From Streptosporangium album (GTDB lineage: Bacteria; Actinomycetota; Actinomycetes; Streptosporangiales; Streptosporangiaceae), in NCBI RefSeq assembly GCF_014203795.1, contig NZ_JACHJU010000003.1:310001-374000 (forward strand): a stretch of 64,000 nucleotides of DNA, read 5' to 3'. Within the stretch, counting starts at the first letter, position 1, and each line of letters opens with the position of its first letter. Position numbers and translations under genes: made by a program. Shown one piece after another: positions 7,594-60,065 of this stretch. The notes beneath the pieces are model-generated. The model ran no database searches and was not told where the DNA came from. It saw nothing but the letters and a program-made list of their open reading frames with translations.

Positions 7594-8415
7594 GTGATCA
7601 TTCGTGAGTTGACCACCGACGACCTCGGCGCCTGCCTGCGGCTCGCGGAGGACCGCCAGTGGGGACGTGAGGAGCGCAAGTGGCTGTTCCTGCTCCAGGG
7701 AGGGGAGGGCTACGGGATCCTGGGCCCCGAGGGGGAACTGGTGGCAAGCGCCGTCCTGACCCGGTACGGCACCCGTACCGCCGCGATCAGCATGGTGCTG
7801 GTGGCCTCCCGGCACGGGCGTCAGGGATTGGGCGGCCGTCTGATCCGCCATGTGCTGGACCAGACCCGCGGCGCGACCGTCTTCCTGAACGCGACCGGGG
7901 CGGGCCGCCCTCTCTATGAGAGGCTCGGCTTCCGCGTGACGAGCCCGGTCGCCATGCATCTGGGGACCTTCACCGGCGAGGCGGCCGGCGCGTCCCGCGT
8001 CGCCGTACCGGAAGATCTGAAGGCGATCACCGACCTCGACGCGGAGGTCGTCGGGGCCGACCGGTCCGCTCTCCTGGCAAGGCTGTCCGGCTTCGCCGAG
8101 CAGATCCGGGTGATCGAGGACGGGCGACGGGTCACGGGGTACGCCGGAATGTGGCGCAACGTGACCAACACGGTTGTCGGGCCGGTGATCGCCGCAGACC
8201 CGCAGGACGCCCGGAGACTGATCGCCGACCTCGCCTCCCAGGTCGGCGGCCCGGTCCGGATCGAGGTCGAGGAGTGCCGCCGGGAGCTGGCGGAGTGGCT
8301 GACCGGACACGGCATGGTCGCGGGGATGCGGACCTCCGACATGGTGGCCGGCGGCCGGGTGCTGCCCGGCGACCGGACCCGGTACTTCGCCCCGGTCATG
8401 TCGGCCCTGGGGTGA
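7594..8415 (+). CDS. GNAT-family N-acetyltransferase with two GNAT-like halves
   Basis: A 273-residue protein. Residues 1-135 form a typical GNAT fold with the acetyl-CoA-binding motif A ([18 protein letters not shown]) and motif B ([11 protein letters not shown]). The C-terminal half (about 140-273) resembles the second GNAT-like domain of YitH-type acetyltransferases. The GTG at 7594 follows the TAA of the azlD remnant without a gap and is preceded by GGAG at 7582-7585, so it belonged to the azlCD operon. Substrate unknown. The 3' end overlaps the convergent ABC gene by 20 bp. Confidence 0.85.
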
Positions 8416-46944: not shown

Positions 46945-48132
46945 TCAGCCCTTGATGCAGATGAGCTGCCGGAGGCGGGCGACCACCTCCACCAGGTCGG
47001 TCTGCGCCGCCATGACCGACTCGATGTCCTTGTAGGCGCCGGGAATCTCATCGATCACCCCGGTGTCCTTACGGCACTCGACGCCGTCGGTCTGCGCCTT
47101 GAAGTCCGTCAGGGTGAAGGTCTTCTTGGCCTTGGTCCGGCTCATCCGGCGACCGGCACCGTGTGAGGCGGAGTTGAACGCATCGGCGTTACCCCGGCCC
47201 TTCACGATGTAGGTGCCGGTCGCCATGGAGCCGGGGATGATGCCGAACTCGCCGGATCCCGCGCGGATCGCGCCCTTGCGGGTGACGAGCACATCCACGT
47301 CGTCGTACCGCTCCTCGGCCACGTAGTTGTGGTGGCAGGAGATCGGCTGCTCGAAGGTGATGCCCGAGAGGTGGCGCCGGAGCACGTCGCAGGCCAGGGC
47401 CATCATGACGGCCCGGTTGCGCCGCGCGTAGTCCTGCGCCCAGAACAGGTCACGCCGGTAGGCGTCCATCTGCGGCGTGCCCCCGACGAACACCGCGAGA
47501 TTACGGTCGGGAAGATCCTGGTTGTGCGGCAGCCCCTGGGCCTGCCCGATGTGGAACTCCGCCAGCTCCTTGCCGATGTTGCGCGACCCGGAGTGCAGCA
47601 CGACCCAGACCACGCCCTCGTCGTCGGCGCAGAGCTCCAGGAAGTGGTTGCCGCCGCCCAGGGTGCCCATCTGCACCTCGGCGCGCTCCCTCTTGGGGTG
47701 CACGGCCGGGGCCAGGGCGTCGAAGTCCTTCCAGAAGCCCGCCCAGTCGGCGGTCTTCAACCCGTGCAGCCGGGTCGGGTCGACCGGCCTCTTGTGGTGC
47801 CCGAACCCGACCGGGACCGCCTGCTCCAGCTTCGAACGCAGGTAGGCCAGGTTGTCGGGCAGGTTGCCGACCTTGAACGAGCTCTTCACCGCGCTCATCC
47901 CGCACCCGATGTCCACCCCCACGGCCGCCGGCGAGACCGCGTCCCGCATCGCGATGACCGATCCCACCGTCGCCCCCATCCCGTGGTGCACGTCCGGCAT
48001 CACCGCGACCCCCTGCACCCACGGCAGGTTGGCCACGTTGCGCAGCTGCTGCATCACGTTGGGCTCGACCTCGGCCGGGTCGGCCCACATGCGGATTGGC
48101 GCACGGCCACCCATCACCTCGTTGTACGTCAT
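46945..48132 (-). CDS. rtcB: RNA-splicing ligase RtcB
   Basis: About 395 residues. RtcB joins 3'-phosphate or 2',3'-cyclic-phosphate RNA ends to 5'-OH ends with GTP and manganese. Metal-binding and catalytic motifs are MPDVHHGMGATVG, GVDIGCGMS, LGGGNHFLEL, HSGSRNIG, CHHNY and the guanylated His in NSASHGAGRRMSR. The ATG at 48132 fits the family start (MTYNEVMGGRAPIRMWADP); an in-frame GTG at 48138 and TTG at 48177 also exist. No RtcR or rtcA gene is adjacent. Confidence 0.95.
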   Translation of the reverse strand: MTYNEVMGGRAPIRMWADPAEVEPNVMQQLRNVANLPWVQGVAVMPDVHHGMGATVGSVIAMRDAVSPAAVGVDIGCGMSAVKSSFKVGNLPDNLAYLRSKLEQAVPVGFGHHKRPVDPTRLHGLKTADWAGFWKDFDALAPAVHPKRERAEVQMGTLGGGNHFLELCADDEGVVWVVLHSGSRNIGKELAEFHIGQAQGLPHNQDLPDRNLAVFVGGTPQMDAYRRDLFWAQDYARRNRAVMMALACDVLRRHLSGITFEQPISCHHNYVAEERYDDVDVLVTRKGAIRAGSGEFGIIPGSMATGTYIVKGRGNADAFNSASHGAGRRMSRTKAKKTFTLTDFKAQTDGVECRKDTGVIDEIPGAYKDIESVMAAQTDLVEVVARLRQLICIKG

Positions 48133-48601
48133 CCCCACATCGCCTCCCTCCAGCCGATCGATCACCAACGACGACAATGACGCCAGAGAACCACCATCCC
48201 CCGCAACCGAATTAAAAATCTACGGCTCCGTTCACCGGGAAACCGGTCGTCGATCGACAGCGGCGTCACCGCGGACAGGCGCATCACCGGGATGTGCCGC
48301 GCCATGGAACCGGAGGAACCCACGGCCGGAGCCTGTTTCGTGCGTCACGAAAGCCAGGCCGAGGTCGCGATATGGGCGGAGCCCACACGGTGGATCAGCG
48401 CAGGGCGCCGCAGAAGACGTCAAGAGTGATCTCGATGACCTCCGCGGCGCTTGCGACCGCCGCCGCGTGAACGACCGGATCACTCAGCCCCGGGACGGCG
48501 GCGCCGCCGCTCCCCTGTACGGTACGCGCCACGCCCGTGCGGACCTGCTCCGGGTAACCCGCCGGATTCTGCTCGTCCGACGACCTCAAGGGTCGACGAC
48601 C
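48133..48601. other. Intergenic stretch between rtcB and the SARP gene
   Basis: About 470 bases with no convincing gene. One minus-strand frame at 48395-48480 (VVHAAAVASAAEVIEI, then LDVFCGALR and a stop) faintly resembles the last helix of a TetR regulator but is too short to call. The right end holds a 16-bp tandem duplication. The upstream region of rtcB has an AT-rich patch near 48210-48225. Confidence 0.45.
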
Positions 48602-48609
48602 TCAAAGGT
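48578..48609. repeat. 16-bp tandem duplication over the end of the SARP gene
   Basis: CGACGACCTCAAGGGT (48578-48593) is followed directly by CGACGACCTCAAAGGT (48594-48609), one mismatch. The second copy contains the stop codon of the SARP gene; the first lies just beyond it. Probably a small replication-slippage duplication. Confidence 0.85.
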
Positions 48610-49363
48610 CAAGGCCGGGGTCGGCCGTGAGGATCCGCTGGTGGAGTCGCCGTACGGCCATGCCCGGCTCCAGCCCCTGCTCGGCGATCAGCAGCGCCCG
48701 CAGCCTGCCGTACACGGTGAGGGCCTCGCACTGTCTGCCCGACCGGTACAGGGCGAGCATGAGCAGCGCCTGCGAGAACTCGCGCAGCGGATGCGCGGCG
48801 GTGAACTCGCGTAGCGCGGGAATCACCTCCGCATGCCGCCCGAGCTCGACATCGGCCTCCAGGGCGGCCTCGCAGGCCATCAGCCGCGCCTCTTCCAGCC
48901 GGTCGGCGTACGCGCTGATCATCGGGCTGGCGGGCACGTCGGCGAGCGCGGGTCCGCGCCACAGGGCAAGTGCCGCCCCCAGCCGCCGGTGCGCCCGTGC
49001 GGGGTCGCGGGCCAGCAGCGCGCCGCGGCCGTCGGCGAGCAGTCTCTCGAACCGGGCCGCGTCGGTCTCCTGCGGAGCGCCGCGCAACTCGTAGCAGCCC
49101 CCGCGCGTGAGCAGGTCGCCGCCGATCACGCGGCGCAGCCGCCAGACATATCCCTGGAGCGTCTTGCGGGCGAACTTGGGCTCGACGCCCTGCCAGAGCT
49201 CCTCTATGATCCGCTCCACCGAGACGGGCCGCCCCGCGTTGATCGCCAGGATGGCCAGGACGGCGCGGTGCTTGGGCGCGGGGACGAGGATCTCCCCGTC
49301 GCCCCGCAAGACCTGGAGCGGGCCGAGCAGGCCGAATCGGGCCCCGTGAAACATCGCGAGCAT
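48602..49363 (-). CDS. SARP-type transcriptional regulator (BTAD)
   Basis: A 253-residue Streptomyces antibiotic regulatory protein type activator. Residues 5-95 form an OmpR-like winged helix (FGLLGPLQVLRGDGEILV, RKTLQGYVWRLRRVIG), and residues 100-250 the bacterial transcriptional activation domain (DAARFERLLADGRGALLA, ASPMISAYADRLEEARLMAC). SARPs switch on specialised-metabolism clusters, so this gene may control the peptide or phenolic-lipid genes that follow. The ATG at 49363 has AAGGTG upstream. It is divergent from the AfsR-like gene. Confidence 0.92.
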   Translation of the reverse strand: MLAMFHGARFGLLGPLQVLRGDGEILVPAPKHRAVLAILAINAGRPVSVERIIEELWQGVEPKFARKTLQGYVWRLRRVIGGDLLTRGGCYELRGAPQETDAARFERLLADGRGALLARDPARAHRRLGAALALWRGPALADVPASPMISAYADRLEEARLMACEAALEADVELGRHAEVIPALREFTAAHPLREFSQALLMLALYRSGRQCEALTVYGRLRALLIAEQGLEPGMAVRRLHQRILTADPGLDL

Positions 49364-49489
49364 GCCGGATCACCTTCCGAACAGGACCGGTCGGGTCTGT
49401 GTTTTCGGACGAGACCAATCTCGATCTAGACTGCCAAGATCGGCTTGCGCGGGGCTTGCGCGTCGGATGGGCGGTCCGAAAGGGGCAGG

Positions 49490-50353
49490 TTGGACTTCGG
49501 AATCCTGGGGAATCTGGAGATCTGGCACTACGACGCACGGGTGCCACTGACCGCGCCCAAGCAGCGGGCCCTGCTGGCGATCCTGCTCGTCCAAGCCGGC
49601 CAGGTCGTCTCGACCGCGCGCCTGGTCGACGAGCTGTGGGGGACATCGCCGCCGAGCAGCGTGGAGAGCACCCTCTACTCCCTGGTCTCCCGCCTGCGTG
49701 GCCGGTTGACGCACGGGCCTCAGCTGGTCCGGGAGCCCGGCGGCTACCGGCTGTGCCTGGAGGGCATGACGCTGGACGCGCACATCGTCGCGCTGCGCAG
49801 CGTCGGCACCGTCTTCTGGCTGCTCGGCCGGTACGGCGAGGCCCTCACCGAACTGGGTGAGGCGCTGCGCGTCAACGAGAGCACAGGCGACGACCACGCC
49901 GCCGGCGGGACGCTGAACCTGCTCGGCATCGTGTCACGCCACCTGGGCCACCTGGAGGAGGCGGTCTCCCACTACGAGCGTGCGCTGGCCGTCCACCGGC
50001 GCACGGGCGACTCCCAGGGCGAGGCCAACGCGCTCAACAACCTGGGTGTCGCCCGCGAGGAGCAGGAACGCTACGCCGAGGCCCTGGACCTCTACCAGGA
50101 GGCGCTGGCGCTACGCCGCGAGGCGGGCCTGTACCACCGCCTCGGGCGTCACGAGGAGGCGTTCGCCCACTTCGCCCGGGCGCTGCGCATCCGCACCGGC
50201 CTGGGCGACCGCCGAGGCCTCGCCGAGACCCACCGGGATCTCGGCGAGGCACACGCCGACCTGGGCGACGCCGTCAATGCCCGGCCTCACCTGCACTCCG
50301 CGGAGGAGATCTTCAGCGAGCTCGGCGTCGTCACGCGCCCGCGGGAACGATGA
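49490..50353 (+). CDS. AfsR-like regulator reduced to a winged helix and TPR repeats
   Basis: A 287-residue protein. Residues 1-90 are an OmpR-type DNA-binding domain (APKQRALLAILLVQAGQVVS, then LVSRLRGRLTHG). The rest is TPR-like, with repeats such as LGRYGEALTELGEALRVNES, LGHLEEAVSHYERALAVHRR and YAEALDLYQEALALRRE. AfsR proteins normally carry a BTAD and an NB-ARC ATPase between these parts, about 500 residues, absent here; the join lies near GYRLCLEGMTLDAH. The last TPR block also appears shortened (RREAGLYHRLGRHEEA). The TTG at 49490 follows AGGGGCAGG. The 3' end overlaps the convergent gene by 23 bp. Could still bind DNA, without nucleotide control. Confidence 0.65.
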   Translation: MDFGILGNLEIWHYDARVPLTAPKQRALLAILLVQAGQVVSTARLVDELWGTSPPSSVESTLYSLVSRLRGRLTHGPQLVREPGGYRLCLEGMTLDAHIVALRSVGTVFWLLGRYGEALTELGEALRVNESTGDDHAAGGTLNLLGIVSRHLGHLEEAVSHYERALAVHRRTGDSQGEANALNNLGVAREEQERYAEALDLYQEALALRREAGLYHRLGRHEEAFAHFARALRIRTGLGDRRGLAETHRDLGEAHADLGDAVNARPHLHSAEEIFSELGVVTRPRER

Positions 50354-51494
50354 GCCCGGCCGACAGCAGGTCCGCCACGCCTGAGCCCAGCCGGTCGGCG
50401 TCGCCCGATCCCGCCACCTGCCGGTATCCCTCGCGCAACGACGGCAGGTCGCGGCCGTCACACAGGGCGTAGATCAGCCATGCGTGGTCGTTCAGCCACC
50501 GGAACCTCGGCGGATCCGGGGAGAGCGCCACCAGCTGCCCCTGCGCCGGGGTCGGGCATACCCGCACCGGTTGTGCCTGGCGGTATCCGCGCGCGTCCAG
50601 CTCCACCTCTTTCACGGACCTCACGGCGGCGGCCACGGCCGGAGCCCGTTCGGACAGAATTCCGGGGGCGATGGGCGCCACCGCGCCGAGCAGCCAGTCG
50701 ACGAACCGCCTGCCCCGGGGGGTGAGCATCTCGCCGTACACCTGGGCGGCCTGTCGCCCGAGATAGTGACGCGCTCCAGGCCGGTGGTGAACCCACCCCC
50801 GGCGGCCGCCTGACTGCCGGGGGTGGGCACGTCCACGAACTCGGTCGCCGGCGGCTCGCCGTACCGTGCGCGAAGGCCCGGGCTCGTCGTCGCGGACGAA
50901 TCCGGCCAGGGAGATGTGCGGCAGCACGCCGGCGCCCGTGTGGGGCAGCAGCTCGGCGAGGAGCGCGGCACCCTGGCCCAGCCCGGCCAGCATGCCGGCG
51001 TCGGGGGTCACCCGGCTGCCGGAGCCGTTCTCCGAGAGCGTCCCGGCCAGCAGCGTCTCCAGGCGCCGGGCCAGCACGCGCTCGGGTTCGGAGCCCGGTT
51101 CGAGATCGGTCCACACCCACGAGACGCCACGGTCGGGCCAGGGGCGTACCCGGGGGCGGGCCAGGCGCTCGCAGGGCCCGAGCCCGTCGAATGAGTCCGC
51201 GATGCCCCGCTCCAGGTACCAGACCAGCCCGTGTGACCTGTCGGCCCCGTTCTCCAGGGCGGTCATATCGTCTTCGAAGGCGTTGCGCAGCACGGGGTCG
51301 TACATCAGCGGGCGGAGTTCGGCGTCGGCCGCCCCGCACAATCGCTCCAGCCGGTCGGCGGCGCGGGGGTGGCACCCGGCCAGCACCCGCAGGCCCAGCC
51401 GATAGCGGGCGAGGTTTCTCACCTCGATCGCCTCGGCCGAGCCGAACTGCGGGTCCGAGCCGAGCATCAGATCGATGGTCGATACGGGAGTCAA
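50331..51494 (-). CDS. Candidate RiPP-associated protein with C-terminal PqqD-like domain (frame disturbed in the middle)
   Basis: A 387-residue frame not matched to a named family. The last 70 residues (FRWLNDHAWLIYALCDGRDL, then LLSAGLIVPAG) look like a PqqD-type RiPP recognition element, the domain that binds leader peptides. The N-terminal part is helical (IEVRNLARYRLGLRVLAGCH). Between about 50880 and 50762 the frame has poor third-position GC and reads as Arg-rich nonsense, whereas the neighbouring frame reads smoothly (RARYGEPPATEFVDVPTPGS, GFTTGLERVTIS), so two compensating indels are likely. The TTG at 51494 follows GAGGTGA. It is the next gene after the 41-residue peptide, separated by a strong hairpin. 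Confidence 0.5.
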   Translation of the reverse strand: MTPVSTIDLMLGSDPQFGSAEAIEVRNLARYRLGLRVLAGCHPRAADRLERLCGAADAELRPLMYDPVLRNAFEDDMTALENGADRSHGLVWYLERGIADSFDGLGPCERLARPRVRPWPDRGVSWVWTDLEPGSEPERVLARRLETLLAGTLSENGSGSRVTPDAGMLAGLGQGAALLAELLPHTGAGVLPHISLAGFVRDDEPGPSRTVRRAAGDRVRGRAHPRQSGGRRGWVHHRPGARHYLGRQAAQVYGEMLTPRGRRFVDWLLGAVAPIAPGILSERAPAVAAAVRSVKEVELDARGYRQAQPVRVCPTPAQGQLVALSPDPPRFRWLNDHAWLIYALCDGRDLPSLREGYRQVAGSGDADRLGSGVADLLSAGLIVPAGA

Positions 51495-51522
51495 AGACTG
51501 TCACCTCGATTTCACCGGCGGG

Positions 51523-51552
51523 GGCCGGCGGCGGGACATCCCGCCGCCGGCC
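51523..51552 (-). terminator. Strong hairpin between the peptide gene and the PqqD-domain gene
   Basis: GGCCGGCGGCGGGA (51523-51536) and TCCCGCCGCCGGCC (51539-51552) are perfect 14-bp complements with a two-base centre. It starts 13 bases past the peptide stop and ends 28 bases before the next start, with no T-run, so it is likely an attenuator that makes the peptide message more abundant, a frequent arrangement in RiPP operons. Confidence 0.7.
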
Positions 51553-51565
51553 CTCTCGTTCTCCG

Positions 51566-51691
51566 TTACCTGGCGCTGGGAGCCGCGTACGGCGGGTGCC
51601 ACGCGCGCTCGTGCGGAGCGTCGGTGGTCACGCTGGGCAGGGTGTTCATCGCCGGCGGCAGCTGCGGGAGTTCCACGGTCTGAGTCGGCAT
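51566..51691 (-). CDS. Small peptide, candidate RiPP precursor (41 residues)
   Basis: An ATG at 51691 with a near-perfect GGAGGA site six bases upstream encodes 41 residues ending at a TAA. The first 27 residues are leader-like (TVELPQLPPAMNTLPSVTT) and acidic to neutral; the C-terminal part (AWHPPYAAPSAR) has Trp, His, Tyr and several Pro and would be the core. A TATATT -10-like box lies at 51732-51737 on the same strand. The next gene encodes a PqqD-like domain protein. No known precursor family is recognised; the small size means it could still be a non-precursor regulator or chance frame. Confidence 0.55.
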   Translation of the reverse strand: MPTQTVELPQLPPAMNTLPSVTTDAPHERAWHPPYAAPSAR

Positions 51692-51881
51692 GATGCTTCC
51701 TCCATTCGCCTGGGGTTGCTGAGCAATGTCGAATATAGGAAGTCGCGGTGTCGGCCCGGTGTGGCGGCGATCTCCTGCCCGGGCCACTCGGCGACGGTTC
51801 TCACCGGGCCGGATCCGGGCCGCTCCGGACGACGTGGCGCGAGGGCGGCTCCCCGAAAGATCACAGAGAGCGCGGCCGGGA

Positions 51882-52769
51882 TCAGAGTGCGGTGATCTCG
51901 GTGCCCCGGATGAGCAGGAGCACCACGGCGACCGCCGCCACGGCGACCGCGGCCACGAAGGGAACCCTCGGCGACCGTCTTCCCAGCAGCAGCCCGGCTC
52001 CGGCCAGCGCGCAGGCTCCGGCCAGCGCGAGCCAGCCCCCCATGCCGGCCGGCCCCGGCGGCCCGAAGACGAGCAGGCCCGTCGCCAGGAGCAGCGGCAG
52101 GGGGATCAGCGCGCGGACGCGGGCGGTGCCGAGCCGTTGCGGCCAGCCGCGGACCCCGGTGGCGAGGTCTGCCGAGATGTCGGGGAGCACATTGGCCAGG
52201 TGCGCGCCGCAGCCGAGCAGTGCCGCCGCCAGGACCGCCCACCACGCGGGCCACGGATGGCCCGGCAGCCCGAGTGTCACGAACGGCGGCAGCACGCCGA
52301 ACCCCACGACGTAAGGCAGCCACGACAGCGCCGTGGCCTTCAGTCCCAGGTCGTAGCCCCAGGCCGCGGCGACGCCCACGAGGTGGACGGTCCCGGCCGC
52401 AGGACCGGAGGCGAAGGAGAGGGGCACGCAGAGCACCAGGGCGGCGGCCGCGGCGGACCACACCACCCGGACGCTCACCGTGCCGTCGGCGACCGGTTTG
52501 CCGGTGCGGCCCGCTTCGATGTCCCGGCCGGCGTCCACCGCGTCGTTGCACCAGCCGATGGACAGTTGCCCGGTCAGTACGGCGGCGGCCACCAGGACGC
52601 ATCCCGCCACCTCACGCCCGCTCGCCACGGCCAGCGCGGTCACCATGACGGTGACCGCCGCGGTGGGCCCGGGATGGCAGGCCCGCGCCAGCCCCAGGAC
52701 GGTGGAGAGCCCGAACGGCCGCCCCCCGGCCTGGCCCCGCTCCCGGGGTGCGTGCCCGCTCGTCGTCAC
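51882..52769 (-). CDS. UbiA-family prenyltransferase
   Basis: A 295-residue membrane enzyme with eight or nine helices. The first Asp-rich motif is GWCNDAVDAGRDIEAGRTGK and the second is LPDISADLATGVRGWPQRLG, both needed to bind Mg-prenyl diphosphate. UbiA enzymes attach prenyl chains to aromatic acceptors or polyprenyl sugars. The gene is divergent from the type III PKS operon (118 bp between starts), so the phenolic product of that operon is a plausible acceptor; this is an inference. The GTG at 52769 starts MTTSGHAPRERG. Confidence 0.9.
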   Translation of the reverse strand: MTTSGHAPRERGQAGGRPFGLSTVLGLARACHPGPTAAVTVMVTALAVASGREVAGCVLVAAAVLTGQLSIGWCNDAVDAGRDIEAGRTGKPVADGTVSVRVVWSAAAAALVLCVPLSFASGPAAGTVHLVGVAAAWGYDLGLKATALSWLPYVVGFGVLPPFVTLGLPGHPWPAWWAVLAAALLGCGAHLANVLPDISADLATGVRGWPQRLGTARVRALIPLPLLLATGLLVFGPPGPAGMGGWLALAGACALAGAGLLLGRRSPRVPFVAAVAVAAVAVVLLLIRGTEITAL

Positions 52770-52886
52770 GGATCGATCGTAGACGGCATGGACGGCGCAT
52801 CACCGTCCATGCCTGTGAGGCATGCTGCACGCGCAGGTGGGCAAAAGGCAGGTATCCGCTGTCCTTTGCCGGAGGGTAATCATCAC

Positions 52887-53945
52887 ATGACGCGAATCGC
52901 CGCCGTACGCGGCGCGCTTCCGCCTAACCGCCACTCCCAGGCCGAGATCACCGATGCGTTCGCACGCGTGTGCCTACCCGAGGACGCCAGCCGCCGCCTA
53001 CTGGACCGGCTGCACGTCAGCGCGCGGGTCGAACACCGCCATCTGGCCCTGCCCCTGGACCAGTACGCCAAGCTCGACGGTTTCGGGATGGCCAACGACG
53101 TCTTCATCGGCTCGGCGGTCGAGCTGGGGGCCGAGGCGGTCGGCGGCGCGCTGGAGGCGGCCGGGTTCGCACCGCAGGACGTGGACATGATCCTCTTCAC
53201 CTCGGTGACCGGTATCGCCGCCCCCTCGGTGGACGCCAGACTGGTCGGCCGCCTCGGACTGCGCCCCGACGTCAAACGGATCCCGGTGTTCGGGCTCGGC
53301 TGCGTGGCGGGAGCCGCCGGGATAGCCCGCCTGCACGACTACCTGCGCGGCTGGCCGGACCATGTGGCCGTGCTGCTCTCGGTCGAGCTGTGTTCCCTGA
53401 CCCTGCAGCGCGGTGACGCCTCCCCGGCCAACCTGGTCGCCGGCGCCCTGTTCGGCGACGGGGCGACGGCCGTGGTGGCCTGCGGCGACGGACGGCGGCC
53501 CGAGACGGCGGGCCCGTCCGTGCTGGCCACCCGCAGCCACCTGTATCCCGACTCCGAGGACGTGATGGGCTGGGACGTCCGTGACACCGGCTTCCAGGTG
53601 GTGCTCGACGCGAGCGTCCCCGACGTGGTCCGCACCTATCTGGCCGACGACGTGCACGGCTTCCTCGCCGAGCACGGCCTGACGGCGCGGGACGTGACGG
53701 CCTGGGTGTGCCACCCCGGCGGCCCGAAGGTCCTGGAGGCCGTGGCCGAGACGCTCCGACTGCCGGACGGCGCACTGGACCTCACCTGGCGCTCGCTGGC
53801 CGAGGCAGGCAACATGTCCTCCTCCTCCGTGCTGCACGTCCTGCGGGACACCCTCGCCCTGCGGCCACCACCGCCGGGCACGCCGGGCCTGCTCATGGCG
53901 ATGGGGCCCGGCTTCTGCTCCGAGCTCGTCCTGCTGCGCTGGTAG
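52887..53945 (+). CDS. Type III polyketide synthase (alkylresorcinol/alkylpyrone synthase type)
   Basis: A 352-residue chalcone-synthase-like enzyme. The catalytic triad is Cys 139 (VFGLGCVAGAAG), His 276 (WVCHPGGPKV) and Asn 309 (EAGNMSSSSV). Enzymes followed by an isoprenylcysteine-methyltransferase-like gene and a flavin hydroxylase match the srsABC operon of Streptomyces griseus, which makes phenolic lipids from fatty acyl starters and malonyl-CoA. The ATG at 52887 has GGAGGG at 52871-52876. First gene of a three-gene operon; UbiA is divergent. Confidence 0.93.
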   Translation: MTRIAAVRGALPPNRHSQAEITDAFARVCLPEDASRRLLDRLHVSARVEHRHLALPLDQYAKLDGFGMANDVFIGSAVELGAEAVGGALEAAGFAPQDVDMILFTSVTGIAAPSVDARLVGRLGLRPDVKRIPVFGLGCVAGAAGIARLHDYLRGWPDHVAVLLSVELCSLTLQRGDASPANLVAGALFGDGATAVVACGDGRRPETAGPSVLATRSHLYPDSEDVMGWDVRDTGFQVVLDASVPDVVRTYLADDVHGFLAEHGLTARDVTAWVCHPGGPKVLEAVAETLRLPDGALDLTWRSLAEAGNMSSSSVLHVLRDTLALRPPPPGTPGLLMAMGPGFCSELVLLRW

Positions 53946-53953
53946 GGGCCACG

Positions 53954-54496
53954 ATGTCCTGGTACGTGCTACTTGTCCTGTTGGTGGGCGTGGAACGCCT
54001 CGCCGAGCTGGTCGTCGCGCGCCGCAACGCGCAGTGGAGTCTGGCCCGTGGCGGAGTGGTGTCCGGGCGCGGCCACTACCCGTGGATGGTGGCCCTGCAC
54101 ACCGGCCTGCTGGCCGGGTGCCTGCTGGAGGCGGGCCTGGCCGGCCGTCCCTTCGTCCCGGCGCTCGGCTGGCCGATGCTCGCCCTGGTGGTCGCCGCGC
54201 AGGGGCTGCGCTGGTGGTGCATCACCGCGCTGGGCCACCGGTGGAACACCCAGGTGATCGTGGTGCCCGGCCTGCCTCCGGTGACGCGTGGCCCCTACCG
54301 GCTGCGCTGGCTGCGCCACCCCAACTACGTCGCGGTGGCCCTGGAGGGTGCGGCGCTGCCGCTGGTGCACGGTGCCTGGATCACCGCGCTGACCTTCACC
54401 GTGCTCAACGCCGCGCTGATGGTGGTGCGGATCCGGTGCGAGGAGGCGGCCCTCTCCTCGCTCGCCCCGGCGCCCCCCGGGCGGGTGACGACGTGA
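53954..54496 (+). CDS. Isoprenylcysteine carboxyl methyltransferase-like protein (SrsB type)
   Basis: A 180-residue membrane protein with four or five helices and the ICMT motif RGPYRLRWLRHPNYVAVALE, which binds S-adenosylmethionine. In phenolic-lipid operons the homologue O-methylates the alkylresorcinol. It starts eight bases after the PKS stop, and its stop overlaps the start of the monooxygenase gene (GTGA), so the three genes are co-translated. Confidence 0.9.
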   Translation: MSWYVLLVLLVGVERLAELVVARRNAQWSLARGGVVSGRGHYPWMVALHTGLLAGCLLEAGLAGRPFVPALGWPMLALVVAAQGLRWWCITALGHRWNTQVIVVPGLPPVTRGPYRLRWLRHPNYVAVALEGAALPLVHGAWITALTFTVLNAALMVVRIRCEEAALSSLAPAPPGRVTT

Positions 54497-55506
54497 TCGA
54501 CGTCCTGGTCGCCGGCGGAGGACCCGCGGGCCTGGCCACCGCCATCCACGCGGCCCTGGCCGGGATGGAGGCGGTCGTCGTCGAACCCCGGTCCACGCCG
54601 GTGGACAAGGCGTGCGGCGAGGGGCTGATGCCCAGCGGGGCCGCCGCGCTGCGGTCGCTGGGCGTGCGGGTGGAAGGCCGGACGCTGCGGGGCATCCGCT
54701 ACCTGGACGGGCGTCGCCAGGCGCAGGCCGCGTTCCGCGACGGCCCCGGGCTGGGCGTGCGGCGCACCGCGCTGCACGCCGCCCTGTACCGGCGGGCGGC
54801 CGAGCTGGGAGTGGAGATCGTCGCGGGCAAGGTGGACGGGGTGCGTCAGGAATCTGACGGGGTCCGGGCGGCGGGGCTGCGAGCCCGCTGGCTGGTGGCG
54901 GCGGACGGCCTGCACTCCCCGCTACGCGCCCTGCTGGGGCTGGAGCTTCCCGACAGCCGCCCACGCCGGTACGGCCTGCGGCGGCACTACCGGGTCGCGC
55001 CCTGGACGGATTTCGTCGAGGTCCACTGGGCCGCGGACGGCGAGGCGTATGTGACCCCGGTGGGCGAGGACCTCGTCGGTGTCGCCGTGCTGAGTTCCCG
55101 GCGGCGCGGCTACCTGGAGCACCTGGCGGATTTCCCCGCCCTTGTGGCGCGGCTGGAGGGACCGGCCGCGACCCCGGTGCGCGGCGCCGGGCCGCTGCGC
55201 CAGCGGGTGCGCGCCCGGGTCGCCGGCCGGGTGCTGCTGGTCGGCGACGCGGCCGGCTACACCGACGCCCTCACCGGCGAGGGGGTCTCGCTGGCGCTGC
55301 TGTCGGCGCAGACCCTGGTGCGCTGCCTGCGCGCCGGTGCGCCGCAGTCGTACGAGAGCGCCTGGCTGAGGCTGTCACGGCGCCACCGGCTGCTCACCGG
55401 GGCGCTGCTGGAGACACGCCGGCACCGGACGTCCGCACGACTGATCGTCCCGGCGGCCCGCCGGATGCCCTCCCTGTTCGGCGCGGCGGTGCACGCGCTG
55501 GCCTGA
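54493..55506 (+). CDS. FAD-dependent monooxygenase/hydroxylase (SrsC type)
   Basis: A 337-residue flavoprotein with the FAD motif VLVAGGGPAGLATAIHAALA, a GD motif VLLVGDAAGYTDALTGEGVS and DG motif WLVAADGLHSPLR. It resembles geranylgeranyl-reductase/halogenase-type monooxygenases. In the srs model the third enzyme hydroxylates the methylated resorcinol to a quinol that oxidises to a quinone. Coupled to the ICMT-like gene by the four-base overlap. Confidence 0.9.
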   Translation: MIDVLVAGGGPAGLATAIHAALAGMEAVVVEPRSTPVDKACGEGLMPSGAAALRSLGVRVEGRTLRGIRYLDGRRQAQAAFRDGPGLGVRRTALHAALYRRAAELGVEIVAGKVDGVRQESDGVRAAGLRARWLVAADGLHSPLRALLGLELPDSRPRRYGLRRHYRVAPWTDFVEVHWAADGEAYVTPVGEDLVGVAVLSSRRRGYLEHLADFPALVARLEGPAATPVRGAGPLRQRVRARVAGRVLLVGDAAGYTDALTGEGVSLALLSAQTLVRCLRAGAPQSYESAWLRLSRRHRLLTGALLETRRHRTSARLIVPAARRMPSLFGAAVHALA

Positions 55507-55578
55507 CGGCGGTGCGCGCCCCACAGCCGCGCGGAGACCGGTCGAGGGACGCCCGGTCCCGAGACCGGTCCGGGTGGG

Positions 55579-56430
55579 CTACTGCCGGGCCGCCTTGTGG
55601 ACGCGACTCCGGCCGGTGGCGTAGCGCTCTGTCTCCATGAACCGGGCTCGCCACTCGTCGTCGCGGTGCCCCGTCACGGTCCGCAGGAAGTGCCCCTGGT
55701 CGTCGGTCGTGGCCTCGGCCGATTTCGTCCATCTCTCCTGCCCCTCCTCCCGGTGCAGGATCTCGACGGTCTGGCCGGAGAACGGGGCGTAGTCCAGGTA
55801 TCCCTGCGGATCGACCCGGTTCAGCACACCCCTGACCTCCACTCCCGTCCCCTTCCGGAGCGCCTGGACCGAACTGAACTTGGTGTCGCGCCTCAGTTGG
55901 AAGCCGGCATACCGGGTGACCGTGCCACCGTCCACCCCCCTGGCGGTCGCGGCGACGGCCCAGGGCCCGGCCGGATACCAGCGGCTCAGCTTCTTGTCCG
56001 GCTCGAACCGCCAGACCTCCCACTCCCCCGAGGCGGGCCAGGCGGGCCCCACCGGCCGGGCCGCCCGCGGCGGGACGATGGAGGCCACGAAGGGCGACAC
56101 GGAGATCGGACCGGTCTGCGGCGCCGGGCCGGGCCTGGAGACCGGGCCGAGCTGGGCCTCGGGGCGGGCGCCCTCCAGGGGACCGGGCGGCGCGCCCGGA
56201 TCGACCTGGACCGTCATCCCCGCGGAACCCGCGACCCCGCGGGCGACCACCTCGATCACCAGGTGCACCGAGCCGGTCGGACCGACGACGGGGGCACCGG
56301 GGTTCAGGGTTATGGAACGGATCACCAGATCGGAGGAGGGCGGCCAGACCTGCTCCGTACCGGCGGGCGCCCCCGCCGGTACGGCGGTGGCCCCCGCCAT
56401 GAGAACGGGAAGAACGATTCTCAAGGTCAT
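55579..56430 (-). CDS. Secreted protein of unknown function
   Basis: A 283-residue protein with a signal peptide (MTLRIVLPVLMAGATAVPAG) and a beta-rich body, Pro/Gly-rich in the first half. The second half (FSSVQALRKGTGVEVRGVLN, then GQTVEILHREEGQERWTKSA) looks like an Ig-like or surface-associated domain. A TAGCGT box (56438-56443) ends seven bases before the ATG at 56430, so the message is probably leaderless. No family or partner is recognised. Confidence 0.7.
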   Translation of the reverse strand: MTLRIVLPVLMAGATAVPAGAPAGTEQVWPPSSDLVIRSITLNPGAPVVGPTGSVHLVIEVVARGVAGSAGMTVQVDPGAPPGPLEGARPEAQLGPVSRPGPAPQTGPISVSPFVASIVPPRAARPVGPAWPASGEWEVWRFEPDKKLSRWYPAGPWAVAATARGVDGGTVTRYAGFQLRRDTKFSSVQALRKGTGVEVRGVLNRVDPQGYLDYAPFSGQTVEILHREEGQERWTKSAEATTDDQGHFLRTVTGHRDDEWRARFMETERYATGRSRVHKAARQ

Positions 56431-56543
56431 GGACAGGACGCTAGGAACCGGCCGGTAATGATCCAGGAGGCGACACACGTCTGATTGGGCAAAGCGCCGC
56501 CCGCAGGCGCCGGCCCCCGGCGGGCCGGGCGCCTGCCGCGGAG

Positions 56544-58379
56544 TCAGCTCCCGTACATCTCGTCGATGACCCCGGCGTACTTGGCGTGGATGACACGGCG
56601 CTTGAGCTTCAGGCTCGGCGTGAGCTCCTCGGTCTCGGCGGTCCACTCCACCGGCAGCAGACGCCAGCGCTTGACCTGCTGGACGCGGGCGAGTTTCTCG
56701 TTGGCGGCGGTGATCGCGACCTCGACGGTCTTGAGGACGTCGGGGTGCTCGGCGAGCTCGGCCAGGGTGGTGAACTCGATGCCCCGTCCCTGGGCCCAGC
56801 CGGGGGCGACCTCGCCGTCGAGGGTGAGGACCGCCACCGGGTACGGCCTGCCGTCGCCGTAGGCGAGGGCCTGCCCGATGAGGGGGTGCTCCTTGAGGTG
56901 GTTCTCGATGTTGGCCGGGGAGATGTTCTCACCGCCGGAGGTGATGATGAGCTCCTTCTTGCGGTCGACGATGCTGACGAAGCCGTCGTCGTCGATGGAG
57001 CCCACGTCGCCGGTGTGCAGCCAGCCGTCCTCGTCCAGCAGGTCGGCGGTCGCCTCGGGCCGGTTCAGGTAACCGCGGGCGTTGGCCGGGCTACGGGTGA
57101 CGATCTCCCCGTCCTCGGCGATGCGGACCTCGACGCCCGGTCCGGCCTGGCCGACCGTGCCGAGCTTGTAGCGGTCGGGGGCGTTGGCGGTGAAGGCGCC
57201 CGTCGTCTCGGTCATGCCGTACACGTCGAGCACACGCATGCCCAGACCGGCGAAGAAGCGCTGGACCTCCAGCGGCATCGGCGCGGCGGCGCTGGCCAGC
57301 CAGGTCGCGTTGTCGAAGCCGATCATCGACCGGATGACCGACAGCAGCGCGCTGTCGGCCTGCTCGTAGGCGGCCCGCACCTCCGCGGCGGGCGTCCGCC
57401 CGTACTGGGTGGCCTCGACGTAGGCGAGGCCGGCGGTCATGGCGTTGCGCACGTTCTCCTGCTGCTCGGCGGACTGGGTGGACAGCAGCGCCTGCAGACG
57501 GGCCGCCATCTTCTCCCAGACACGTGGGACGCCGAAGAACAGAACCGGTCTGACCTGGCCGAGAGTGGCGCCGAGCTGGGCGAGGTCGGTGCAGAAGTAG
57601 GTGTGGGAGAACTTGAACAGCGGCAGGTAGAGGCTGAGGACCCGCTCGGCGATGTGGGCGTAGGTGAGGTAGGAGATCTGCGTGCCCCCCTCGGGCAGCG
57701 CGACCATCCGGCTGGTGGACACGACCTCGAAGAACACGTTGGTGTGGGTCAGCGGCACCCCCTTGGGGTTGCCGGTGGTCCCCGAGGTGTACAGGACGGT
57801 CAGGGGGTCGTCGGCGGTCACCGCCTGCCAGCGGGCGTCGATCGACGCGGGGTCGGAGGCCAGCCGCTCGCGCCCCAGGGCCAGGAAGTCCTCCCAGCTC
57901 AGGAAACGCTCACCGGACGGAGCGCCCTCCAGCATGACGATCCTGCGGATCTCGGGCAGCCCGTCCAGCACCGGTTCCCACCTGGCCAGCTCGGCCGGGC
58001 CGCCCAGCACCACGATCCTCGCGCCGACGTCACCGGCGACGAAGGCCACCTGGTCGGGGGCGAAGGTGGAGTAGACCGAGCACGACACGCCGCCCGCGTG
58101 CACCGCTCCCAGGTCGGCCAGGACGTGCTCGCTGCGGTTGACCATCATCAGCGCCACCGCCTCGCCCGGCTCCAGCCCGAGGGCGACGAAACCGGCGGCG
58201 ATCTCCAGGACCCGCTGCCGGGCCTCGGCGTAGGTGAGGGTGACCCAGCCTCCGTCGACCGGATCGGAATAGGCGGGGGCGTCGGGATTCTGCTCCGCCG
58301 CCTCCTTCACCCGCGCGCAGACGGTACGGCCCTCGATCTCCCGCTCGATCGCCGCACGCTCTTCAAGGACACCGGCCAT
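56544..58379 (-). CDS. Long-chain fatty acid-CoA ligase (FadD15-like)
   Basis: A 611-residue AMP-forming enzyme. The P-loop-like motif is YTSGTTGNPKGVPLTH, followed by YGMTETTG and GWLHTGDVGSIDDDGF, with the C-terminal GGENISPANIENHLK. It activates fatty acids as acyl-CoA. The ATG at 58379 has AGGAGG six bases upstream; upstream in-frame codons are not family-like. It could supply acyl-CoA starters to the type III PKS 3 kb away, but such ligases are common housekeeping enzymes. Confidence 0.93.
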   Translation of the reverse strand: MAGVLEERAAIEREIEGRTVCARVKEAAEQNPDAPAYSDPVDGGWVTLTYAEARQRVLEIAAGFVALGLEPGEAVALMMVNRSEHVLADLGAVHAGGVSCSVYSTFAPDQVAFVAGDVGARIVVLGGPAELARWEPVLDGLPEIRRIVMLEGAPSGERFLSWEDFLALGRERLASDPASIDARWQAVTADDPLTVLYTSGTTGNPKGVPLTHTNVFFEVVSTSRMVALPEGGTQISYLTYAHIAERVLSLYLPLFKFSHTYFCTDLAQLGATLGQVRPVLFFGVPRVWEKMAARLQALLSTQSAEQQENVRNAMTAGLAYVEATQYGRTPAAEVRAAYEQADSALLSVIRSMIGFDNATWLASAAAPMPLEVQRFFAGLGMRVLDVYGMTETTGAFTANAPDRYKLGTVGQAGPGVEVRIAEDGEIVTRSPANARGYLNRPEATADLLDEDGWLHTGDVGSIDDDGFVSIVDRKKELIITSGGENISPANIENHLKEHPLIGQALAYGDGRPYPVAVLTLDGEVAPGWAQGRGIEFTTLAELAEHPDVLKTVEVAITAANEKLARVQQVKRWRLLPVEWTAETEELTPSLKLKRRVIHAKYAGVIDEMYGS

Positions 58380-58556
58380 GACGCGCCTCCTGAAAGTGCT
58401 CACTTGCATGAGTGGCATGCATCGCACCACACGGCTTCCCTCCGAACAAGACCTCGCGAGTGAGAAGAAGGACCACGATGCGGGACCGCCCCCACCGCCC
58501 CGGCGAGAGATGTACGTAGAGTTATGAGTCGATCACAGGGCGACGGCGGGGGGCAC

Positions 58557-60065
58557 ATGACATCGGGGACAGGCGCTCGGGAGAAAACCTTCTTCGGGCA
58601 TCCAAGCGGCCTCGCCACGCTGTTCGGCACCGAGATGTGGGAACGCTTCAGCTGGTACGGCCTCCGCGCCATCCTGGCCACCTTCATGGCGGCCTCCCCC
58701 GCCATGGGCGGCCTGGGCCTGACGCAGCAGACCGCCACGGCGGTCGTCGGCATCTACGGCGCCCTGATCTATCTGGTCGCCCTGCCCGGCGGCTGGGTCG
58801 CCGACCGCATCCTCGGCGCCCGCAGAGCGGTGCTGTGGGGCGGCTTCATCATCATGTGCGGCCACATCAGCATGGCCATCCCGGTCAGCACGGGCGCCTT
58901 CGTCGCCCTGGGACTGCTTCTCATCATCACCGGGAGCGGGCTGCTGAAGCCCAACATCTCCGCGATGGTCGGCAAGCTCTACCCCGAGGACGACGACGCG
59001 CGCAGGGACGCGGGCTTCTCCATCTTCTACCTCGGCATCAACATCGGCGCCTTCGTCGCCCCCCTGATCGTCGGCTGGCTGGCCGCGGGCGGCCGCTGGC
59101 ACCTGGGCTTCAGCGCGGCGGCGGTCGGAATGGCCCTGGGACTGACCCAGTACGTGCTGGGCCGGCGCCACCTCAGGGGCGTGGGCGATGAGCCCGGCCA
59201 CCGGCTGTCTCCTCGCGAGCGCCGGCACTTCGCCCTCGCCCTCGCCGTCGCCGTCGTCGTCGTCGGCGCCGTCCTTGCCGTCTGGGTGGCCTCCGGCACC
59301 TTCGATCTCGACACCTTCGCGCTCGCGGTGACGGTGATCATCCTCATCGTCCCGGTGGCCTACTTCGGCTACATCCTGTTCGGCAGCCACAACCTGACCC
59401 CGGGTGAGCGCTCGGGGATGAAGGCCTACATCTGGCTGTTCGTCGCCGCCGCCATCTTCTGGATGCTCTACGACCTGGCCCCGACCGTGCTGCTGTTCTT
59501 CGCCCAGGACAGAACCGACCTGACGCTGTTCGGCATCCGGATCACCGCCGCGACGACGCAGGCGTTCAACCCGCTGTTCATCGCGCTGCTGGTGCCGGTC
59601 TTCGCGGCGCTCTGGGTCAAGCTGGGCAACCGGGTGACCGCCCCTCACAAGTTCGTCTTCGCGCTGTTCATGAACGGGCTGAGCTTCGTGGTCATGGCCC
59701 TGGCCGCCCAGCTGGCCGCGCACGGCAGGATCTCCGTGTGGTGGCTGGTGCTGGTCTACCTCGTCCAGGTCTTCGGCGAGCTGGCGATGAGCCCCGTCGG
59801 GCTGTCGATCACCAGCAAGCTCGCCCCGCAGGCGTTCAAGGGGCAGATGCTCGGGGTGTGGTTCATCGCCATCTCCGTGGGCGACGCCGTGGGCGGGCAG
59901 ACCGCCCGGCTGAAGAACTACATGTCGGAACCCATGTATTTCCTCACGCTCGCGGGGATCGCGATCGCGGCCGCCGTGGTCCTTTTCATGTTCGTCGGCA
60001 GGCTCGACGCCATGATCGGCGAGCATCACGAGGAGGCGGCGTCGGCCGGACCCGCCGCATCGTGA
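58557..60065 (+). CDS. Peptide:proton symporter (POT/PTR2 family)
   Basis: About 502 residues and twelve or more helices. The POT motif EMWERFSWYGLRAIL is at residues 25-39, and the MFS loop GGWVADRILGARRAVLWG follows. It imports di- or tripeptides with protons. The ATG at 58557 is preferred over 58524 because GGGGGG lies just ahead and a TAGAGT box (58517-58522) would place the transcript start near 58529, downstream of the earlier ATG. Confidence 0.93.
   Translation: MTSGTGAREKTFFGHPSGLATLFGTEMWERFSWYGLRAILATFMAASPAMGGLGLTQQTATAVVGIYGALIYLVALPGGWVADRILGARRAVLWGGFIIMCGHISMAIPVSTGAFVALGLLLIITGSGLLKPNISAMVGKLYPEDDDARRDAGFSIFYLGINIGAFVAPLIVGWLAAGGRWHLGFSAAAVGMALGLTQYVLGRRHLRGVGDEPGHRLSPRERRHFALALAVAVVVVGAVLAVWVASGTFDLDTFALAVTVIILIVPVAYFGYILFGSHNLTPGERSGMKAYIWLFVAAAIFWMLYDLAPTVLLFFAQDRTDLTLFGIRITAATTQAFNPLFIALLVPVFAALWVKLGNRVTAPHKFVFALFMNGLSFVVMALAAQLAAHGRISVWWLVLVYLVQVFGELAMSPVGLSITSKLAPQAFKGQMLGVWFIAISVGDAVGGQTARLKNYMSEPMYFLTLAGIAIAAAVVLFMFVGRLDAMIGEHHEEAASAGPAAS

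Follow-up and report, generated by a model that had tools for sequence, protein, structure and literature searches.

A locus on the minus strand of a 64,000-nucleotide (nt) stretch of the Streptosporangium album genome (contig NZ_JACHJU010000003.1, positions 310,001 to 374,000; here called the window and numbered from its first letter) probably represents an actinomycete cassette of compact size for a ribosomally synthesized and posttranslationally modified peptide (RiPP), in a copy that has lost its function only recently. We assign this reading a probability of roughly two-thirds (0.68). Along the minus strand, positions 50331 to 51764 contain a promoter region, then a gene of 41 codons for a putative precursor peptide, then a 14-bp hairpin, and finally an open reading frame (ORF) of 387 amino acids. 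The ORF (50331 to 51494, TTG start) is the remnant of a gene for a PqqD-tailed enzyme of the alpha-ketoglutarate (aKG)-HExxH type; its frame is open, and its catalytic core is missing. The host genome comprises 9.02 Mb in 14 contigs and is 99.98% complete. After removal of duplicates, the comparison set consisted of 13 loci: the window, L005, L006, L008, L009, L010, L011, L012, L013, L014, L015, L016, and L031.

The window ORF gave no Pfam or NCBIfam match at E ≤ 1, the TIGR04267 model included, and a preliminary description made from the sequence alone had taken its body for an unnamed, possibly new type of enzyme. When aligned with the intact members, the window protein matched them before and after a gap. 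Exactly at this gap, all 12 relatives carry an HExxH core, which is absent from the window copy. All 6 of the 12 intact members that were scanned passed the curated cut-off of 40 bits for TIGR04267 (aKG-HExxH-type peptide beta-hydroxylase), with scores of 54.8 to 68.5 bits. Searching the Protein Data Bank (PDB) with a profile of 11 intact members returned ChlH (PDB entry 8s5f) as the only sequence match at E ≤ 1 (E = 1.3e-4). This match covers profile positions 224 to 301, which fall inside the stretch missing from the window. A low-confidence structural model of the L010 enzyme (predicted local distance difference test [pLDDT] score of 51.7) had the three 8s5f chains as its top three Foldseek matches (E = 0.024 to 0.097, none below 0.001). 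The relatives are thus aKG-HExxH peptide hydroxylases, and the window body had no nameable family because its catalytic core is missing. A new enzyme class was rejected.

Comparison with L010 located the damage. The N-terminal part of the window gene (50887 to 51494, minus strand) is in frame and homologous to L010 residues 1 to about 208. It ends at a deletion junction (50886/50887) that lacks 287 nt relative to L010, corresponding to residues 209 to 304 with the HExxH motif; the deletion measures 287 nt against L011 and L015 as well and 284 nt against L031. The following 121 nt (50766 to 50886) are homologous, are read in another frame for about 40 codons, and end at a 1-nt deletion. As the 287 nt and the later single nucleotide sum to a multiple of three, the original frame is restored. 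The 12 intact members share 115 invariant columns; the window copy has lost 39 of these and retains every one of the other 76, among them all 8 in the frame-shifted piece. In a leave-one-out comparison, the intact members departed at 0 to 7 invariant columns, 5 of the 12 at zero, which equals the window copy. The survival of all 76 columns suggests that the damage is very recent or, less likely, that it is an assembly artefact. The ratio of nonsynonymous to synonymous substitution rates (dN/dS) against L010 was about 0.35 for the N-terminal part and about 0.25 for the C-terminal part.

The damage extends to the adjacent gene. The ORF at positions 49445 to 50353 (plus strand) is the remnant of an AfsR-type regulator gene in which the DNA-binding domain is joined in frame to the tetratricopeptide repeats (TPRs), the BTAD and NB-ARC part being missing. 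It is short by about 630 residues and by about 54 more within the TPRs, both in frame. Thus, three long stretches are missing from two adjacent genes, which supports decay. Of 163 columns that do not vary among six other copies, the AfsR-type remnant deviates at 21, versus 1 to 9 for each of these six; this may reflect decay or distance. A small gene for a Streptomyces antibiotic regulatory protein (SARP) at 48602 to 49363 (minus strand) has kept its full length, with domain matches for both the DNA-binding and the BTAD parts. An AfsR-type gene stands beside or near the peptide-enzyme pair in 10 of the 13 loci and a small SARP gene in 7 of 13, so that the regulators described earlier as flanking the locus are indeed there and belong with the cassette.

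The precursor gene (51566 to 51691, minus strand) encodes 41 amino acids and is preceded by a ribosome-binding site, GGAGG (51699 to 51703), 7 nt ahead of the ATG. The peptide begins with a leader-like MPTQTVELPQ and has a conserved C-terminal part, D24...ERAW-x-P-x-Y..P38; the preliminary description was right in seeing a RiPP-like precursor here, and the ribosome site that it noted was confirmed. The window peptide gave no Pfam or NCBIfam match at E ≤ 1. Homologous peptides of 41 to 45 residues are encoded upstream of the enzyme gene in the relatives, and a full precursor beside the same enzyme gene was found in 12 of the 13 loci (the window and 11 of the 12 relatives). The conservation of the peptide frame, a check proposed in the preliminary description, was thus borne out, and a precursor kept beside a modifying enzyme is one feature expected of a RiPP cassette. 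The recurrence of this frame beside homologous genes led us to reject a chance ORF. Alignment of 11 peptides (the window and ten relatives, without L031) revealed the invariant residues M1, P2, P9, P19, D24, E28, R29, A30, W31, P33, and P38, with ERAW-x-P as the invariant motif; the L031 peptide, read by eye, fits the same pattern. In L016 (Kitasatospora sp. Root107, about 7833 to 8010), the leader end is kept, the ERAW part is gone, and the enzyme is intact, which looks like the mirror image of the decay in the window. No second copy of the peptide was found in the host genome, where the next match had an E value of 0.62. All 21 pairs formed by seven equal-length genes had peptide dN/dS values under 1 (0.29 to 0.76; pairs with the window, 0.43 to 0.76), these figures being rough because they rest on about 30 synonymous sites. 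L005, L006, L008, L009, and L012 were dropped from this set for their length and L016 for its lost core.

The C-terminal domain of the window ORF (50334 to 50576, minus strand) resembles PqqD, the fold of the RiPP recognition element (RRE), a winged helix with N-terminal strands. The last 81 residues are 32 to 72% identical to those of ten relatives. The isolated window tail matched the PqqD model PF05402 weakly (E = 0.068; 13.9 bits, gathering score 23.4), and all 11 isolated tail domains matched it at E ≤ 1, the best at 4.2e-6. Among the full-length proteins, five of six matched PqqD, one of them above the gathering score (L005, 23.9), and L010 gave no match. An AlphaFold model of the tail consisted of helices only (pLDDT 57.3), and a PDB search with the tail profile returned one chance-like match (E = 1.6). 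The RRE-like end proposed earlier is weakly favored by the sequence matches, and the poor structural model matched nothing meaningful in the PDB; we refer to the tail as PqqD/RRE-like.

Between the two genes lies a hairpin with a 14-bp stem and a 4-nt loop (51522 to 51553, minus strand), which is a putative attenuator or mRNA stability element. The 70-nt window stretch around it folded at -44.3 kcal/mol, compared with a mean of -30.2 kcal/mol for shuffled sequences (z = -4.55; 0 of 200 shuffles as good). A long hairpin was present between both genes in all nine loci folded (L011, L014, L015, and L016 were left out), with z-scores from -1.04 (L013) to -5.09 (L006). In eight aligned hairpins, 95.4% of the cells pair, and 4 of the 14 pairs are altered on both sides. 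Of 500 shuffle controls, 9 scored as high for changes on both sides, 52 for pair types, and none for the covariation score. The structure was derived from these same sequences, which gives it an advantage over the slid controls. The outermost pair fails in five of the eight aligned loci. The perfect hairpin noticed earlier behind the peptide gene is thus conserved and carries compensatory changes.

Upstream of the peptide gene, the 7-mers CCACACC and CGACACC form a SARP-type operator with an 11-bp period (51747 to 51764, minus strand), followed by a putative -10 element, TATATT (51732 to 51737), 9 nt after the second 7-mer. The operator aligns in the window and six relatives. The common pattern, CCACACC-N4-C(C/G)ACACC at an 11-bp period, nine nt, and TAnnnT, was drawn from these very sequences. 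Repeats and -10 element occur in 7 of the 13 loci, once per locus, and L016 has the repeats without the -10 pattern. The window site is the only one with zero mismatches in the host genome. SARP promoters have been described as carrying direct repeats with an 11-bp period whose 3' repeat lies 8 bp from the -10 element (PMC10936776, available text). The window box agrees with this rule, its distance to TATATT being 9 nt, or 8 with the 7-mer moved by one position, and it is a putative SARP-binding site.

In the intact copies, SARP would bind the 11-bp repeats and switch on a short transcript. The precursor of 41 to 45 amino acids would be made in excess, the hairpin limiting or stabilizing the transcript before the enzyme gene. 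The PqqD/RRE-like domain of the enzyme would hold the leader (MPTQxVE-P-Q), and its Fe(II)/alpha-ketoglutarate HExxH center would hydroxylate a residue in D24...ERAW-x-P33-x-Y/F...P38, with Pro33 and Asp24 as the likeliest targets; if the reaction were cleavage, Ala30 of ERAW would be a more daring candidate. In the window copy, the precursor may still be made and would not be modified by its own enzyme; with the metal site gone, no oxidation is to be expected there. A more far-reaching idea is that the cassette forms a self-contained peptide-signal circuit consisting of a SARP-switched precursor, one RRE-tailed iron enzyme, and a product to which the neighboring AfsR-type regulator responds through its TPR end. 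The window would then be a rewired version, with the enzyme and regulator cut down in frame and the peptide, operator, and SARP kept. The idea draws on the presence of AfsR-type genes at 10 of the 13 loci and is, in our view, quite doubtful.

Several observations weigh against a recently inactivated RiPP cassette. The retention of all 76 surviving invariant columns would be unlikely in a long-dead gene, and the losses, added up, preserve the reading frame in each case and introduce no stop codon. Most PqqD matches of the tail fall short of the cut-off, and none of the five PDB matches of the tail model at E ≤ 10 was below 1e-3 or a PqqD protein. The L013 hairpin stretch barely beats its shuffles (30 of 200 as good). 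A run of T residues 3' of the hairpin exists only in L005 and L006, so that termination by the hairpin is putative. The repeats are absent from 5 of the 13 loci (L005, L006, L008, L009, and L012). With one mismatch allowed, the operator pattern has 15 sites in the genome, versus 16 for a reversed control, and 20 of 100 window shuffles hold at least one match at ≤ 3 mismatches (the real site has none). Moreover, the comparison showed neither a protease nor an exporter shared by all loci. L013 to L015 share most of their flanks, however, including an upstream ORF that is 35 to 39% like the ABC transporter ATPase of L005 and L006, so that an exporter may yet belong to the loci.

The same retention of invariant columns, with 8 of them now out of frame, and the intact HExxH gene in the 12 other loci would also fit an assembly or sequencing artefact, in which the strain has intact enzyme and AfsR-type genes and the contig is collapsed or wrong at this point. 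Such an artefact would have to combine three long losses of differing length with a 1-nt loss in two adjacent genes, and no obvious repeat was seen within 65 nt around the enzyme junction. The near completeness of the 14-contig assembly also argues against it, as do the RtcB, UbiA, type III polyketide synthase (PKS), AMP-ligase, and PTR2 ORFs of the window, which cover most of their Pfam models. For a flavin adenine dinucleotide (FAD) monooxygenase-like ORF, the match extends over just half of the best model (positions 3 to 175 of 349), so that the window genes are no clean control. We consider an artefact unlikely, although it is an explanation to be taken seriously.

The frame-keeping sum of the losses, together with the intact precursor, operator, hairpin, and SARP gene, could instead point to a functional minimal derivative. 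The truncated protein would be an RRE-only leader-binding partner or a decoy, and the peptide would remain unmodified or be modified in trans by another HExxH enzyme. Two other TIGR04267 enzymes above the cut-off are encoded in the host genome (C1:510419-510919 and C3:123738-124199). The subfamily profile finds neither of them at E ≤ 1e-3, however, and they are therefore unlikely to know this leader. About 40 codons of the truncated gene are read in another frame, and open frames persist easily in high-GC DNA, so that an open frame is cheap to keep. Such a derivative thus seems improbable. That the 387-amino-acid protein is itself an active enzyme of a new RiPP-modifying class would agree with its lack of Pfam and NCBIfam matches; the HExxH core in every relative, exactly at the gap of the window, makes this extremely improbable. 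Recent inactivation of the cassette is thus the reading that we prefer.

The cassette has a patchy distribution in actinomycetes, with intact relatives in Nonomuraea (including L010), Streptosporangium, Microtetraspora, and Streptomyces. Among 41 related genomes, two matched, the window's own and one other, whose match was split into three pieces and left part of the query uncovered. Matches were found in 2 of 16 genomes of the genus, in 9 of 150 of the family at E ≤ 1e-15 (4 of these belonging to the same subfamily), and in 1 of 197 of the class at E ≤ 1e-60, namely, the window's own. In the genus of genome G168, 6 of 54 genomes matched, with ORF lengths equal to those of L010, L011, L013, L014, L015, and L031; for this reason, they were counted as loci already held. 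Streptomyces plasmid records gave seven matches, one annotated "PqqD family protein" and six sharing another label, and two of the seven were examined more closely. A scan of genome contigs with two short motifs yielded nine loci, one of them a duplicate. As the scan relied on these motifs, it missed members without them, such as L031, which was added from the family-level search. Five distant HExxH relatives from five genomes of the family (L033 to L037) had no match to the PqqD-tail region of the profile and were kept outside the 13 loci. In one of these (L036, 6319 to 8724, minus strand), the frame, read by eye, runs on into class I O-methyltransferase-like sequence, possibly an HExxH-methyltransferase fusion.

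The loci were compared with each other rather than annotated gene by gene in their flanks, and this comparison revealed no further gene common to loci across genera. The preliminary description had noted a UbiA prenyltransferase gene upstream on the same strand. A gene with a UbiA domain match does lie there (51882 to 52769, minus strand), but its membership in the cassette was rejected: no counterpart was found in the other 12 loci, with flanks of about 8 kb a side, and the gene adjoins ORFs for a type III PKS, an ICMT-type methyltransferase, and an FAD monooxygenase-like protein. The type III PKS gene (52884 to 53945), identified by its domain match, lies beside the UbiA gene and is divergent from it; its best NCBIfam match is DpgA, below the cut-off. 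Positions 51882 to 60065 hold these four ORFs together with an AMP-ligase and a POT/MFS transporter, a gene set suggestive of a prenylated polyketide (meroterpenoid) cluster next to the RiPP remnant. On the other side, an RtcB-family ORF (46945 to 48177) spans the Pfam RtcB model end to end; its best NCBIfam match is the intein-containing RtcB model, below the cut-off. In the two Streptomyces plasmids with L005 (9596 to 17201) and L006 (9692 to 17221), the pair is immediately followed by a class I lanthipeptide cluster that includes a sulfotransferase; the two may make a joint product or may be mere neighbors.

An anonymous locus thus becomes a testable RiPP cassette with one recognized modifying enzyme. 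The aKG-HExxH family is young, and its reactions (hydroxylation of His, Asp, Phe, Gln, and Pro and backbone cleavage) are not yet predictable from sequence. With intact relatives at hand and precursors of only 41 to 45 residues, one enzyme and one peptide could be assayed directly. The window probably presents a RiPP locus at an early stage of decay, and its enzyme gene is a case of annotation missing an enzyme once the core is gone. Neither the ERAW motif nor the phrase used to annotate the relatives led to any paper in literature searches. No PqqD-tailed aKG-HExxH enzyme with an ERAW precursor was found in the accessible text of the literature (including PMC12636437, PMC13060819, PMC12257519, PMC12707348, and PMC7726476); most subscription papers and all supplements were beyond reach, and the combination may therefore already be in print.

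Set beside the known systems, the enzyme family is known, the cassette variant is, as far as seen, undescribed, and the window copy is broken. According to the available text of the respective papers, ChlH and other TIGR04267 aKG-HExxH enzymes act on RiPP precursors (PMC12636437), and known members of the family hydroxylate His, Asp, Phe, Gln, and Pro (PMC13060819). The intact relatives resemble ChlH, the HExxH domain of ChlBH, in that the HExxH stretch and a PWR motif align. ChlBH is a radical S-adenosylmethionine (SAM) fusion that acts on a preinstalled cyclophane (PMC12636437), whereas the enzyme described here has no such fusion and carries a PqqD-like tail; the window copy differs further in its lack of the catalytic core. 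PflC/PosC from Pseudomonas and PesO from Peribacillus, which beta-hydroxylates Pro, are likewise clustered with their precursors (PMC12636437, PMC13060819). Backbone cleavage by PflC/PosC takes place at an ARMD motif, the first position of which is critical (PMC12636437). Both the pfl and the pes cluster add a multinuclear nonheme iron-dependent oxidative (MNIO) enzyme and further enzymes, and the available parts of these papers mention no ERAW-type precursor. BipH/BpmH of biphenomycin biosynthesis are also aKG-HExxH hydroxylases, and the Streptomyces griseorubiginosus precursor likewise has 41 amino acids; the biphenomycin clusters have an FRF core and radical SAM and MNIO enzymes (PMC12257519, PMC12707348, in the parts available), whereas the loci described here share no further gene across genera. 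The regulators of the relatives correspond to AfsR and the small SARPs in their SARP, NB-ARC, and TPR layout and in the promoter with 11-bp repeats near the -10 element (PMC10936776, available text). They differ in being bound to the cluster at these loci and, for the AfsR-type protein of the window, in being truncated.

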